Part shown: one piece after another, positions 33,402-55,708 of the stretch
Layout of the letters: every line of letters begins with the position of its first letter
Numbering within the stretch: position 1 is the first letter of the stretch
NCBI GenBank assembly: GCA_027364845.1
Contig: DAHXOO010000006.1
Location: 1 to 64,000 of the forward strand
Source of the DNA: Pseudomonadota bacterium
GTDB lineage: Bacteria > Pseudomonadota > Gammaproteobacteria > Acidiferrobacterales > UBA6901
DNA length: 64,000 bases
Direction: 5' to 3'
The notes under the pieces: model-generated
Told to the model about the DNA's origin: nothing
Seen by the model: only the letters and a program-made list of their open reading frames with translations
The model's database searches: none
Program-made: the position numbers and the translations under genes

Positions 33402-33427
33402 GGAATAAAAGTAGCGCCCACATCGTC
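33402..33427 (+). promoter_or_regulatory. Candidate ECF-type promoter upstream of the sigma factor
   Basis: GGAATAA-N15-CGTC (33402-33408, 33424-33427), followed about 30 bp later by the sigma gene. Confidence 0.55.
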
Positions 33428-33460
33428 ATATCTTACGATTAACGAACATGAGTGAAATGC

Positions 33461-34033
33461 ATGGACTTTCTCAAGCTATTTGGCCAGTCGAGCGACGTCG
33501 CAGCGGCGCTGCAGCAAAGCCGCTCCAGACTCTACCGCATGGCTTATGCGTGGTGTCACAATCGCGCCCTGGCAGACGATCTGGTGCAGGAGACGCTGAC
33601 AAAGGCGATGCAAAAATCCTCGCAGCTGCGCGACCCGAAAGCCCGCGACGCCTGGCTCTTCAGCATTCTGACCAACTGCTATCGGGATCACTTTCGGCGC
33701 CAGCGGGAGACGGAGGATATCGACGAAATCGAGTTGCCGCACAACTCCACTCCGGAAACCGAGAACAGCCAACTCGAGATCGTCCGTAAGGTACGCGCGA
33801 CCATTGCGCGACTTCCGGAAGGACAGCGTCAGGTGATCACGCTCGTGGATCTAGAAGGCTTTTCCTATGTTGAAGTCGCCAAAGTACTGGACATACCTAT
33901 TGGAACCGTCATGAGCCGCTTGTGCCGTGCACGCAGCGCCATGCTGCGGCTGCTGACAACTGAGTTCGGGAGCCCAGATGCGCTGAAGATGGCCGGAATG
34001 CGGCAGGAAGCCAATATACGGAGAATCAAATGA
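33461..34033 (+). CDS. ECF-type RNA polymerase sigma factor
   Basis: Region 2 MAYAWCHNRALADDLVQETLTKAMQ...DAWLFSILTNCYRDHFRR; region 4 LPEGQRQVITLVDLEGFSYVEVAKVLDIPIGTVMSRLCRARSAML; alternative GTG start at 33452. Confidence 0.93.
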   Translation: MDFLKLFGQSSDVAAALQQSRSRLYRMAYAWCHNRALADDLVQETLTKAMQKSSQLRDPKARDAWLFSILTNCYRDHFRRQRETEDIDEIELPHNSTPETENSQLEIVRKVRATIARLPEGQRQVITLVDLEGFSYVEVAKVLDIPIGTVMSRLCRARSAMLRLLTTEFGSPDALKMAGMRQEANIRRIK

Positions 34034-34791
34034 GTGATGAAGGGACATTTTCGGACGAATATCTGAACGCCTTTGTCGATGATCAGCTGACGCTCGACGA
34101 AAAGAGCCACCTGTACAGCGAAATTGGCAAGGACGAGACGATTAACCGCCGGGTTTGCGAGCTGCGCAAGGTGCGCGATCTCGTACAAATGGCATACAAG
34201 ATCCCGCCTGAGGTCCCGACCGACACGCCTGCCGGGACGAAGCACTTTGCTTGGCTGCGGCGCAATTTCGCTGCCAGTGCGGCGGCGATCATAGGCACCT
34301 TGGTGCTGGTGAGCGCATTGCATCAGGACAGCAGCATCGGGTTCGTCGCGGGACATACCACCGTTACGCTGAAAGCTCCGGCGGGAGGCGCGAGGCAGGT
34401 CGCGAGCACGGCAACATTGGGCAGCCAGGAGATCAAGGTCCTTTTTCACCTGAACAGTGGCAACCCGGTGCACATGAAGGAAGTGCTGGATGAAACTGAA
34501 AGCTTGCTCAAGCTTTACAGACGCACCCATCAGAAGGCGCGCGTGGAGGTCATCACCAATGGCGAGGGACTCAACCTGCTTCTGGCCAGCCGCTCGCCCT
34601 ACCCCGCGCGCGTCGCTTCAATGCTGAAGAAGTTCAAGAATCTGCAGTTCGCGGCCTGCCTGAATACGCTGGACCGCTTCGGCAGCGAGGGCATCGAAAC
34701 CAAGCTTCTGCCCGGCACCACTGTGGTCAATTCGGGCGTGGCTCAAATCATCCGTCTGCAACGCAGAGGATGGATTTACATCCAGGTTTGA
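34030..34791 (+). CDS. Putative membrane anti-sigma factor with C-terminal extracytoplasmic DsrE-like domain
   Basis: Start overlaps sigma stop (ATGA); N-terminal FSDEYLNAFVDDQLTLDEKSHLYSEIGKDETINRRVCELRKVRDLV anti-sigma-like; one TM (FAASAAAIIGTLVLVSAL); C-terminal domain alignable to the next ORF. Confidence 0.78.
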   Translation: MSDEGTFSDEYLNAFVDDQLTLDEKSHLYSEIGKDETINRRVCELRKVRDLVQMAYKIPPEVPTDTPAGTKHFAWLRRNFAASAAAIIGTLVLVSALHQDSSIGFVAGHTTVTLKAPAGGARQVASTATLGSQEIKVLFHLNSGNPVHMKEVLDETESLLKLYRRTHQKARVEVITNGEGLNLLLASRSPYPARVASMLKKFKNLQFAACLNTLDRFGSEGIETKLLPGTTVVNSGVAQIIRLQRRGWIYIQV

Positions 34792-34851
34792 CCGGCTGGG
34801 GCCGAAAGGGTCGGACCTACGACCTGGAAACAGCGATGGGACAGTAATGGC

Positions 34852-35277
34852 ATGCAACCGGTGGGCGCATCGGCACCGACACCTGATTCAGAAGCGACTC
34901 AGGCAGCCGGATATGCCAGCCAGAAGGTCGTATACCATGTCAACTCCGGCGATCCGAAGCTGCTGAAGGGAGTGCTGGGCAATATCCGGAATCACATCAA
35001 TGCGGTCGGCCAAGGCCGGATCGAGATCATAGTCGTGATGCACGGCGACGGCTTGAGTCTGCTCAGACTTGCGAACCAGGATACACACATGCAAAAAGCG
35101 ATCGACGGACTCAGGGTTCAAGAGGTTCGATTCAGCGTCTGCAACAATACACTGGTAGGCGCGGACATAAACTACAAGACCGATCTCTACCGCGTTTCGG
35201 AATCCGACATCGTGCCGAGCGGAGTGGCGCAGATCGCCAAACTCCAGCAGGAGGGCTACGCCTACATCAAGCCCTGA
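34852..35277 (+). CDS. DsrE-like domain protein
   Basis: KVVYHVNSGDPKLLKGVLGNIRNHINAVGQGRIEIIVVMHGDGLSLL...CNNTL...VPSGVAQIAKLQQEGYAYIKP. Confidence 0.82.
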   Translation: MQPVGASAPTPDSEATQAAGYASQKVVYHVNSGDPKLLKGVLGNIRNHINAVGQGRIEIIVVMHGDGLSLLRLANQDTHMQKAIDGLRVQEVRFSVCNNTLVGADINYKTDLYRVSESDIVPSGVAQIAKLQQEGYAYIKP

Positions 35278-35302
35278 CCCATTGCTTCCTCTCCTCCCTT
35301 CC

Positions 35303-35328
35303 AGCCCGCAAACGCGGGCTCTTTTTTT
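35303..35328 (+). terminator. Intrinsic terminator of the sigma/DsrE operon
   Basis: AGCCCGC-AAAC-GCGGGCT followed by CTTTTTTT. Confidence 0.9.
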
Positions 35329-36377: not shown

Positions 36378-36490
36378 AATCCTTGCAGAGCGTGCCATCC
36401 GGGCATTTTCGCTATTCTGCAGAACACTTGGATGCGCCCGCATCCCTGCAAAGTCGTAAACCCGCATCTCGCTCAGGAGTCTACCGCACC

Positions 36491-37684
36491 ATGTTCCACG
36501 GATTGATTGTCATGCCTTGGTGGGGCTACGCCATCGTTGCCCTGGTCCTGACCCATATCACCATTGCGAGTGTCACTATTTTTCTTCACCGTCATCAGGC
36601 GCATCGCGCCCTTGATTTGCATCCTGTAGCTAGTCACTTTTTCCGCGGCTGGCTGTGGCTGACAACAAGCATGGTAACCAAGGAGTGGGCTGCGATTCAC
36701 CGTAAACACCACGCCAAGGTAGAGACCCCGGAAGACCCGCACAGTCCGCAGCAGCATGGCATTCACAAAGTTCTTTGGCTGGGTGTTACGCTGTACCACC
36801 GGGAATCTATGAATGCGGAGACAATGACGCGGTACGGTCATGGAACGCCCGACGACTGGCTGGAACGGCACATCTACACAAAACGCCACAACCTCGGGCT
36901 TTTTATCATGCTCGCAATCAATCTGCTGTTGTTCGGCACAACCGCAGGCATGCTGATCTGGCTGGTCCAGATGGTTTGGATACCGTTTTGGGCCGCTGGC
37001 GTCATCAATGGAATCGGACATTTCTGGGGCTACCGCAATTTTGAGGTCAGCGATGCCAGCACGAACATCTTTCCCTTGGGAATTCTCATCGGCGGGGAAG
37101 AACTGCACAACAACCACCACACTTTCGCGAGCTCGGCCAAGCTTTCATCGAAGTGGTGGGAGTTCGATATCGGTTGGATGTACATCCGTCTAATGCAGGC
37201 GATAGGGCTCGCACACGTCCGAAAAATTCCCCCCGCGCTGGCGTTCGACGCCAACAAAGAGAATATCGACCTGGATACGGTCAAGGCGGTTATTGCTAAC
37301 CGTTTCAATGTGATGGCACAGTTTGCACGCGAGGTGATGCGTGCCGTGCACCGCGAAGCGCTCAGGAACACCGACCGCGCCGACCGAGAATCTTGGACCC
37401 TGCTGAAGCGCGCACGCCGCCTGATGGTGCGGGAAGCGCGTCTGCTCGACAAAAGGAGCAACGAGTGGCTTCAGCGCGCGCTCGAGCGTTACCAGGATCT
37501 ACGCACCGTATACACCATGAAGCAGAAACTGCAGGATATCTGGCACCGCTCGGCAACGACCCAGGAGTACCTCCTGCGCGCGCTGCAGGACTGGTGCCAC
37601 GAGGCGGAGGAAACGCGTATCCAAGCACTGCACGCATTTGCACGGAAGCTGCGCGGCTGCACGCTTTCACGGGCAGCCGCGTAG
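36491..37684 (+). CDS. Acyl-CoA/fatty acid delta-9-type desaturase
   Basis: His boxes HRHQAHRA, HRKHHAKVE, HNNHHTF in a membrane protein. Confidence 0.92.
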   Translation: MFHGLIVMPWWGYAIVALVLTHITIASVTIFLHRHQAHRALDLHPVASHFFRGWLWLTTSMVTKEWAAIHRKHHAKVETPEDPHSPQQHGIHKVLWLGVTLYHRESMNAETMTRYGHGTPDDWLERHIYTKRHNLGLFIMLAINLLLFGTTAGMLIWLVQMVWIPFWAAGVINGIGHFWGYRNFEVSDASTNIFPLGILIGGEELHNNHHTFASSAKLSSKWWEFDIGWMYIRLMQAIGLAHVRKIPPALAFDANKENIDLDTVKAVIANRFNVMAQFAREVMRAVHREALRNTDRADRESWTLLKRARRLMVREARLLDKRSNEWLQRALERYQDLRTVYTMKQKLQDIWHRSATTQEYLLRALQDWCHEAEETRIQALHAFARKLRGCTLSRAAA

Positions 37685-53144: not shown

Positions 53145-54077
53145 ATGGCATGCAGTCACACAAAAAACTGTGAGCTATTCCCGCAGTTCGCACTGAACCC
53201 AGCGCTGAAGGTCTGGCAGACCCACTACTGCGAGGGTGAGTTCGCCCAATGTGCGCGCTATCAGCTATCCCTCGAAGGGAAAACGATTCCCCTGAATCTG
53301 CTGCCCAACGGCAAGCGCGTCGAAACACCACGCACTTCGAGCGCTTATGGCGCAGCGGCCCTGTTCAACGCGATCGTCAAGGACCGGGTGCATATGGTGG
53401 AGTCCCTGTTGCGCACTGGTGTCGACATCAGTGTCCGCAATGCCGAAGGCATGACTCCGCTGATGGCGGCGGCAAGTCGCGGCAATATTCCGATCATCCG
53501 CTTGCTGCTCTCCAAGGGAGTCGACGTCTCCGCGATCAATCTGAATGGGGCGAATGCCCATGACTTCGCAGTCCAGGGAGGTTTTTCGCAGGTGGCGAAA
53601 CTCATCGCTGCCGCGGGCGGGCGACCAAGTGGCATACCGGTGTCACCCGTGGTCACGGAACACCGCGCGCCAGTGGAGCACCATGAGCCGGTAGAATACC
53701 ACGAACCGGTGGAACAGCCCCCGCGAATTCAGACCGCGCAGGTCGTGCCGCTTGCGGCCGAGCGGCCCCGCGTTGTCGACGGCGGACATGGCTTTTGCCT
53801 GCGCATCCCGACGAATGATGCCCAGGGGCTCGCTCAGGAAATTGCACATGCCTGCGCGGACTGCTTCGTTGCCATTGAGGCAATGGTCCACAAGACAAGT
53901 GCCGGCATCCAAAGTGGCGCCTCAGTCATCGTACTCACCGGGCCGGTTGCGGATCAGGACACGATTCTGCGCATCGTCCACCGACTTGAAACCCTGGGCG
54001 CAGTGTCCGGTCCTATCAGCTGCATGCGACTAGAGTCACTTGCAATGCCCGAAATGGCGAGGACGGCGACATGCTGA
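53145..54077 (+). CDS. Multidomain protein: Cys-rich N-terminus, ankyrin repeats, hexapeptide-repeat linker, C-terminal ACT-like domain
   Basis: NCELFPQFALNPALKVWQTHYCEGEFAQCARY; ankyrin NAEGMTPLMAAASRGNIPIIRLLLSKGVDVSAINLNG; ACT-like FVAIEAMVHKTSAG...VIVLTGPVADQDTILRIVHRLETLGAVSGPISCMRLESL. Confidence 0.82.
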   Translation: MACSHTKNCELFPQFALNPALKVWQTHYCEGEFAQCARYQLSLEGKTIPLNLLPNGKRVETPRTSSAYGAAALFNAIVKDRVHMVESLLRTGVDISVRNAEGMTPLMAAASRGNIPIIRLLLSKGVDVSAINLNGANAHDFAVQGGFSQVAKLIAAAGGRPSGIPVSPVVTEHRAPVEHHEPVEYHEPVEQPPRIQTAQVVPLAAERPRVVDGGHGFCLRIPTNDAQGLAQEIAHACADCFVAIEAMVHKTSAGIQSGASVIVLTGPVADQDTILRIVHRLETLGAVSGPISCMRLESLAMPEMARTATC

Positions 54078-54697
54078 ACTACTGGCCGTGGTGGCTCGGA
54101 TCGCTGGCGCTGGCTGCGATCACAATCGGCTTCTGGCTGCTATTGCGGCGCCCTCTCGGTGTTTCCGGCAGCTGGGCGCGCATCGTCGGTTGGCGCGAAG
54201 CCCGGGCGGTCGCACGGGCGGAGGCCCCTTTTCGCGTCAACGCGGCAGCCATGGGCGACGCCCTGCTGGCTGCAACGCTGGCCGAATTCGGCGAACAAGC
54301 AACTTTTCAATCGCTGTCGACGTCGGGTGCAGGCGCCGCGTCTCCGTCCAGGGCAATGGCGCCATCGTCGCGCACACACTGGACCGTCCACCTGACATTT
54401 CTCGGCACAATGTTGCTGGGTGGATTTATTGCATCAACGTCGAACGGCACCTTCGCGCTGCGCTTTGACCTCGGTTCCGTGTACACGCAACTGTTCGGCT
54501 CAGGCTGGCATTCCTGGCTGCTTCTGATGCTCGGCGGCGGCCTTGTGGGGTTCGGCACCCAGATGGCGGGCGGATGCACCTCGGGGCATGGATTGAGCGG
54601 CTGTTCCCGCCTGGTGCCGGCAAGCCTGATCGCCACCTCGATATTCTTCGCTACCGCGGTCGGAGTTTCCTTCCTCGCACAGGTGATGGCAAGATGA
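54071..54697 (+). CDS. YeeE/YedE-family sulfur transport protein, first half
   Basis: LVGFGTQMAGGCTSGHGLSGCSRLVPASLIATSIFF; overlaps previous ORF. Confidence 0.85.
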   Translation: MLNYWPWWLGSLALAAITIGFWLLLRRPLGVSGSWARIVGWREARAVARAEAPFRVNAAAMGDALLAATLAEFGEQATFQSLSTSGAGAASPSRAMAPSSRTHWTVHLTFLGTMLLGGFIASTSNGTFALRFDLGSVYTQLFGSGWHSWLLLMLGGGLVGFGTQMAGGCTSGHGLSGCSRLVPASLIATSIFFATAVGVSFLAQVMAR

Positions 54698-55119
54698 AAA
54701 CGCGTTCAACCTTAGAGCAACATTTCATCTACGGGCTTTTTGGGCTGGTCTTGGGGTTCGCCCTGAGCCGCATCGGTTTTGCCAGCTACAGCCAGGTGCA
54801 CCGGATGTTCGTTTTCTCCGATCTGCGCCTGCTGTATACGTTCGCCGGCGCCGTAGGTCTCACCATGGCCGGATTCATGGCTTTTGCCCGTGGCCACAGG
54901 ATTCCCACCAAACCCTTCCATCCCGGCACGATCCCCGGCAGCATCCTGTTCGGCGCTGGCTGGGCCCTGACCGGGTCCTGTCCGGCGATCGCAATCGTCC
55001 AGATCGGCGAAGGCCAGTTGGCAGCGGCGTTTACCCTGCTGGGCATTCTGTTCGGCGTATGGGCTTACCGTCAGGTGCACGCCCAGATCTTTCATTGGGA
55101 CACGGGCAGCTGCGAATAG
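54694..55119 (+). CDS. YeeE/YedE-family (DUF6691-like) sulfur transport protein, second half
   Basis: GLVLGFALSRIGFASYSQVHRMFVF; GSILFGAGWALTGSCPAIAIVQIGEG; ATGA overlap with previous ORF. Confidence 0.87.
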   Translation: MKTRSTLEQHFIYGLFGLVLGFALSRIGFASYSQVHRMFVFSDLRLLYTFAGAVGLTMAGFMAFARGHRIPTKPFHPGTIPGSILFGAGWALTGSCPAIAIVQIGEGQLAAAFTLLGILFGVWAYRQVHAQIFHWDTGSCE

Positions 55120-55270: not shown

Positions 55271-55708
55271 ATGCGTTACGCATGCATGACAGGGTTCCTC
55301 ATCGCCACCCTGGCGCTGTCTCTGTCGCCCGTTCCTTCCCAGGCAGCGGCGACTCCGCACCGGCACCGCCTCGGCGTCGTCGTCCAGGTGAGCAATGACA
55401 ACCCCGAGGCATGGGATTTCACTCTGCTGAACATCAGCTACATCCAAGCACAGCTCGGAAAAAATAGGCTTCCCATCGAGGTGGTCGCGTTCGGTCCAGG
55501 CATTTTCATGCTCACGCGCAATTCGGTGGTACGCGAAAGACTGGGCAAGGCAATGAAAAATGGCGTGCGCTTCGTCGCCTGCGAGGACAGCATGCAGGCA
55601 CACAAGCTTGCCCGCGAGGATATGTACCCGGGAATCACTTTTGTTCCGCTCGGGATCGCTGAGATCGTCAGCAAGCAGCGCCAGGGCTGGTCCTACCTGA
55701 AGCCGTAA
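55271..55708 (+). CDS. Secreted DsrE-like domain protein
   Basis: Signal peptide; VSNDNPEAWDFTLLNISYIQAQLGKNRLPIEVVAFGPGIFML...VRFVACEDSM...VPLGIAEIVSKQRQGWSYLKP. Confidence 0.82.
   Translation: MRYACMTGFLIATLALSLSPVPSQAAATPHRHRLGVVVQVSNDNPEAWDFTLLNISYIQAQLGKNRLPIEVVAFGPGIFMLTRNSVVRERLGKAMKNGVRFVACEDSMQAHKLAREDMYPGITFVPLGIAEIVSKQRQGWSYLKP

Follow-up and report, generated by a model that had tools for sequence, protein, structure and literature searches.

To what signal does an ECF sigma factor answer when its membrane partner ends in a DsrE domain, the fold of a family of sulfur carriers? The question is raised by positions 33461-35277 of a 64,000-nucleotide stretch of DNA (the window), which hold three co-directional genes for an ECF sigma factor, a DsrE-fused anti-sigma-like protein, and a stand-alone DsrE protein. 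The reading favored here, to which a probability of about two in three is given, is that they form the control operon of a sulfur-oxidation regulon, in which the DsrE-bearing membrane anti-sigma factor senses periplasmic sulfane sulfur and frees the sigma factor for transcription of sox genes.

The operon, its sigma factor, and its promoter

The original prediction of three same-strand genes ending at a strong intrinsic terminator agrees with the layout found. The first gene (33461..34033, + strand) encodes a protein of 190 residues that contains sigma-70 regions 2 and 4 only, as is characteristic of ECF sigma factors. Pfam Sigma70_r4_2 (E=3.5e-17) and Sigma70_r2 (E=6.1e-13) both match above cut-off, as does the NCBIfam sigma70-ECF model TIGR02937. 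Translation starts at the ATG at 33461 and not at the alternative upstream GTG at 33452, as relatives begin MDFLK. The second gene overlaps the sigma stop by 4 bases (ATGA at 34030), again as anticipated. The terminator (35303..35328, + strand) consists of a G+C-rich hairpin at 35303-35320, with a 7-pair stem that includes 6 G-C pairs, followed by CTTTTTTT, the T-tract extending to 35328. Further downstream, the window ORF at 36383-37684 (+ strand) matches a fatty-acid desaturase domain and then the ISL3 transposase family in Pfam, an apparent desaturase-transposase-like fusion.

An ECF-type promoter is located upstream of the operon (33402..33427, + strand), with the -35 element GGAATA at 33402-33407, a 16-base spacer, and the -10 element CGTC at 33424-33427. 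No housekeeping sigma-70 promoter was found 5' of the operon; its start is explained by this ECF motif. GGAATA-N16-CGTC recurs before the sigma gene in 80 of 89 distinct upstream regions, at a median of 60 bp from the start, and the window promoter is identical to the consensus published for sulfite-responsive ECF26 sigma factors (-35 GGAAT, -10 CGTC; PMC6527743). This identity suggests kinship of the window sigma factor with ECF26, making it a candidate member on the basis of its promoter. Sigma factors from the Sinorhizobium meliloti megaplasmids are among its best plasmid-borne relatives by coverage and score, at about 37% identity.

The ECF26 factors RpoE4 of S. meliloti and SigE of Starkeya novella share with the window system their promoter consensus, a link to sulfur metabolism, and the order of a sigma gene followed by its anti-sigma gene, and RpoE4 is autoregulated (PMC6527743, PMC3511301). 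However, these factors control sulfite oxidases and are paired with COG5662 anti-sigma factors, whereas the predicted targets of the window system are sox, YeeE, and DsrE genes. The definition of the ECF26 group does not demand a COG5662 anti-sigma factor in every member (PMC3511301).

A membrane protein with a C-terminal DsrE domain

The second gene (34030..34791, + strand) encodes a protein of 253 residues, here called the fusion, which is kept in most genomes of the order and has 111 distinct full-length homologues. It comprises three predicted N-terminal helices (residues 9-55), one transmembrane segment, a linker for which the model is poor, and a domain at residues 134-253 for which it is good. 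The predicted cytoplasmic sigma-binding domain (residues 1-57; 34030..34200, + strand) holds the helices, placed at 9-16, 22-32, and 36-55 in the AlphaFold model, and Cys43 (34156-34158), present in 106/111 fusions (95%). The transmembrane segment covers about residues 80-98 (34267..34323, + strand); the best hydropathy segment begins at residue 80 (maximum 1.92) and is preceded by WLRR. By the positive-inside rule the N-terminus is predicted to face inward, which agrees with the earlier placement of the C-terminal domain outside a single membrane span; the DsrE domain would thus be periplasmic.

A gene beside that of the sigma factor, an N-terminal helical domain, and a single transmembrane segment make up the layout of class I membrane anti-sigma factors, such as RseA and the zinc-binding type, which likewise end in a C-terminal extracytoplasmic sensor and are encoded directly after the sigma factor. 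The fusion differs from these in its missing zinc motif, its weak similarity to zf-HC2 and RseA_N, and its DsrE sensor domain. The HxxxCxxC motif, already reported missing from the window protein, occurs in the first 90 residues neither of that protein nor of any of 111 homologues, which rules out a zinc-binding anti-sigma factor. Weak zf-HC2 similarity was detected in 8/18 fusion members (best E=0.006) and RseA_N similarity in 2, while a direct comparison of RseA (its sequence checked against 1or7) with the N-terminal domain was not significant, and a profile search of this domain against the PDB gave no meaningful match. Although sequence similarity is weak, the position and helices of the N-terminus fit a domain that may bind the sigma factor.

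The DsrE fold proposed for the second and third genes is borne out by both sequence and structure comparison. The domain of the fusion (residues 134-253; 34429..34788, + strand) is modelled with pLDDT above 90, and the third gene (34852..35277, + strand) encodes a DsrE-family protein of 141 residues. The Pfam DsrE model matches the third gene above cut-off (E=7.5e-10) and the second by itself below it (0.017). Both genes match the DsrE-family structure 1l1s (MTH1491) by sequence (E=6.5e-10 for the second and 6.7e-11 for the third), and the AlphaFold models of the fused domain and the stand-alone protein superpose on 1l1s in Foldseek with TM-scores on the target of 0.90 and 0.88. The models also superpose on 2pd2; ST0148 ranks next after 1l1s, and DsrEFH and YchN match more weakly. 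The two proteins are alignable with each other at 32% identity over 133 columns, a resemblance that is not due to chance (pairwise E=9e-15).

One Cys had been noticed at the same position in both, and this correspondence extends through the family. Cys210 of the fusion (34657-34659) is invariant in 111/111 distinct fusions, among which W248 and Y250 are also invariant or nearly so, and Cys97 (35140-35142) is nearly invariant in the stand-alone alignment. The position, a candidate counterpart of the sulfur-accepting catalytic Cys of DsrE/TusD, matches the conserved Cys of MTH1491 and ST0148, the two proteins that this comparison covers. DsrE/DsrF/YchN sulfur carriers such as MTH1491, ST0148, and DsrEFH have the fold in common with the window domain, but they are stand-alone soluble proteins, neither anchored in a membrane nor fused to a sigma-binding domain.

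The stand-alone gene had been taken for a duplicate of the fused domain. This origin is contradicted by a maximum-likelihood tree in which fused domains and stand-alone proteins form two groups without exception, divided by a single branch (97/95), long branches calling for caution; recent local duplication of the fused domain is ruled out by it. Since the tree splits the two groups, the stand-alone protein is, on phylogenetic grounds, an old paralogue and companion and not a copy. Its proposed role as a direct partner of the sensor is complicated. Nearly all copies in relatives carry an obvious N-terminal hydrophobic signal sequence, but those of the window genome and one congener have none, so the stand-alone protein of the window genus would sit across the membrane from the sensor domain. 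At loci outside the order, the sigma and DsrE genes often point away from each other, with a porin gene (Porin_O_P or Porin_4) downstream of the DsrE gene, and there GGAATA-N16-CGTC also faces the divergent DsrE gene. A second DsrE-family protein is encoded in the window at 55271-55708 (+ strand; Pfam DsrE E=8.5e-09), just downstream of membrane-protein ORFs at 54071-55119 that by eye look like split YeeE/YedE-type transporters.

Known DsrE-fold proteins, among them DsrEFH and YchN, form oligomers, and secreted DsrE genes lie nearly always near the fusion gene or under the same promoter. The fused domain could therefore be pictured as a docking or oligomerisation platform of a sigma factor that still controls Sox genes, the signal coming from a Sox protein or from one or more secreted DsrE proteins, which might act as sulfur-loaded ligands. 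We consider this unlikely: the Cys of the fused domain is invariant also at loci without an adjacent stand-alone gene, and the adjacent copy in the window genus lacks a signal peptide.

Distribution of the system and its predicted regulon

The anti-sigma query matches 50/57 genomes of the window's Acidiferrobacterales-like order, 2 of these 50 (G023 and G024) through the DsrE part only. Linkage of the three genes, as originally described, holds for the first two, which are adjacent at 30/30 distinct loci read in the order; the third gene follows at only 22/30, one of the eight absences being a contig end. Across the class, full-length fusions were counted by eye from the match list in about 64/369 genomes. 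Among named records with relatives are Acidiferrobacter, Sulfuricaulis, Sulfuricella, Thiobacillus, Sedimenticola, Parasulfuritortus, and Hydrogenophilus; many of the relatives are known from metagenome-assembled genomes. On plasmids only matches to the DsrE domain, and no copies of the fusion, were found. At Acidiferrobacter-type loci without the stand-alone gene (such as L058, L062, and L072), the fusion is followed in the same direction by a lactonase-type beta-propeller gene (Pfam Lactonase). At L042 and L043 (about 4.7-8.8 kb), the sigma/anti-sigma-DsrE pair occurs twice in tandem, with a promoter for each copy; a divergent DsrE gene with its porin gene and a further DsrE gene downstream are also present. 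Targets may be split between the duplicated pairs.

The promoter pattern is enriched in genomes that carry the system. It occurs 13 times in the window's own genome against 3 for the reversed pattern, 28 times against 1 in six congeneric or confamilial genomes, and 22 times against 1 in six further genomes of the order (50 against 2 for the 12 relatives together). Eight genomes chosen for absence of the fusion show no enrichment (8 sites against 9 control). The position weights of the motif were trained on sites upstream of sigma genes, which makes the scores of those same sites circular; the fixed-pattern counts, the reversed-pattern control, and the soxB test described below are free of this circularity. 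The own genome also has low-scoring matches, most of which fall within ORFs or ahead of unrelated genes such as guaB; these were discounted as chance.

High-scoring sites in the own genome lie before the sigma operon and soxY, as well as before genes for a Tat-type DsrE protein (contig C100) and a YeeE/YedE transporter (C106). The soxY gene is carried by two contigs, and it belongs together with the promoter because the end of C108 and the start of C97 share 77 identical overlapping bases. The assemblies of this genome and of three congeners (L157, L169, L180, and L186) each break off within soxY, a short way past the promoter, which suggests that the region is repeated or variable. Behind the Tat-type DsrE gene (L152, about 32.0-33.2 kb), on the same strand, lies an ORF that by eye looks like the MsrP/YedY molybdoenzyme, and the two are possibly one operon. 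A fifth high-scoring site (C182:431-456, L161; score 21.8) has no clear ORF directly downstream and a serine/threonine-kinase-like ORF about 1.1 kb away; it possibly belongs to a small RNA or a long leader. In relatives, the genes downstream of sites encode SoxB, SoxY, SoxX, Sulf_transp, Tat-DsrE, and porin proteins, as well as YeiH-like, DUF302, carbonic anhydrase, and thioredoxin-like proteins, the YeiH-type putative exporters standing under weaker sites.

A recognition site before sox genes is the mark of a Sox regulon, and it was found before soxB as well as before soxY and soxX. When soxB loci of the order were located by a family model and not by the motif, a site lay within 600 bp upstream in 21/30, and these 21 were the only sites in 270 kb with both strands counted. 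Class-wide, soxB is present in 51/64 genomes with the fusion as opposed to 70/305 without it (odds ratio 13, p=1.6e-17, relatedness uncorrected). When the spacer was allowed to vary by one base in a class-wide sample, a site was located before soxB in 5/15 genomes that carry the fusion, as opposed to 0/14 that do not. Several fusion genomes have no site directly before soxB, and 13 of the 64 class genomes with a full-length fusion, the own genome among them, have no soxB match. The own assembly is incomplete (96%); it gave no soxB match above the family cut-off and contains soxY with its promoter. A thiosulfate-oxidation regulon of an ECF sigma factor is well supported, and because the sigma factor's own promoter recurs before soxB, soxY, soxX, YeeE-type transporter genes, and secreted DsrE genes, the original proposal that an extracytoplasmic DsrE domain links a sulfur signal to the sigma factor is strongly favored.

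The sites before sox genes might instead serve another ECF sigma factor with similar specificity, leaving the window operon a local role only. Overlap of this kind is seen in S. meliloti, where RpoE1 and RpoE4 share ECF26-type promoter recognition, and the present comparison covers this one sigma factor among those that the genomes may encode. Yet the site is nearly invariant before this sigma gene, as expected for autoregulation, and no enrichment is seen in those tested genomes that lack the system, so that a second reader of the sites appears improbable. It also seems rather unlikely that the system of the window responds, as its ECF26 relatives do, to sulfite or to oxidative or redox stress instead of sulfane sulfur, possibly through the cytoplasmic Cys43. 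The shared promoter consensus with RpoE4/SigE, the conservation of Cys43, and the YeiH-type genes speak for such a signal, but the targets seen include no sulfite dehydrogenase gene and represent the front end of thiosulfate oxidation together with sulfur transport, and the described ECF26 anti-sigma factors bear COG5662 domains and not DsrE (PMC3511301).

The proposed sensor among known sulfur regulators

Under the favored reading of a periplasmic sulfane-sulfur sensor, the membrane anti-sigma factor would keep the sigma factor inactive through its cytoplasmic N-terminus, and its DsrE domain would report sulfane sulfur in the periplasm, whether thiosulfate-derived, polysulfide, or protein-bound. 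The signal would most simply be persulfidation of Cys210, or docking with a sulfur-loaded secreted DsrE protein, and release of the sigma factor could follow by conformational change or regulated proteolysis. Once freed, the sigma factor would transcribe its own operon from GGAATA-N16-CGTC, as well as soxB, soxY, soxX, and genes for YeeE/SoxT-like transporters, secreted DsrE proteins, and porins elsewhere in the genome. The periplasm is where thiosulfate is acted on by SoxXAB and SoxYZ, making this a sensible place to read the substrate (PMC11582611). What computation establishes here is the gene order, the DsrE fold, conservation, the promoter with its targets, and the link with soxB; binding of the sigma factor, placement of the DsrE domain in the periplasm, the ligand, the part played by the Cys, and the mode of release are inferred. 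The strictest version, in which a sulfur-carrier DsrE domain has been turned into a periplasmic anti-sigma sensor and sulfane sulfur on Cys210 releases a sigma factor dedicated to thiosulfate oxidation, is put forward tentatively, at somewhat less than even odds.

The window system follows the pattern of an ECF sigma/anti-sigma pair, its sensor domain being new. Sulfur-responsive control of sox and SoxT-like genes is known from the sulfane-sulfur-responsive repressors SoxR/sHdrR, with SoxT, in Hyphomicrobium and Paracoccus, and control of sox genes in response to sulfur from the sigma-54 system TspS/TspR of Acidithiobacillus (PMC10451225, PMC11582611, PMC12194929). In contrast to the window system, with its ECF sigma factor and membrane anti-sigma sensor, SoxR/sHdrR are cytoplasmic ArsR-type repressors and TspS/TspR is a two-component system. 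In the open-access papers searched, neither a DsrE domain on an anti-sigma factor nor an ECF sigma factor assigned to sox genes was found.

The means by which regulators in sulfur oxidisers detect external sulfur are said to be poorly understood (PMC11582611). The present system, which occurs in many environmentally important sulfur oxidisers, supplies a candidate sensor with one invariant cysteine, along with a defined promoter and a predicted regulon, and it could explain how sulfur is sensed outside the cell. With it, ECF signalling would reach beyond sulfite defence into the main energy-yielding sulfur pathway. If the sensing model is true, external sulfur would be sensed directly and Sox controlled by activation, in a manner widespread among chemolithotrophic beta- and gammaproteobacteria.
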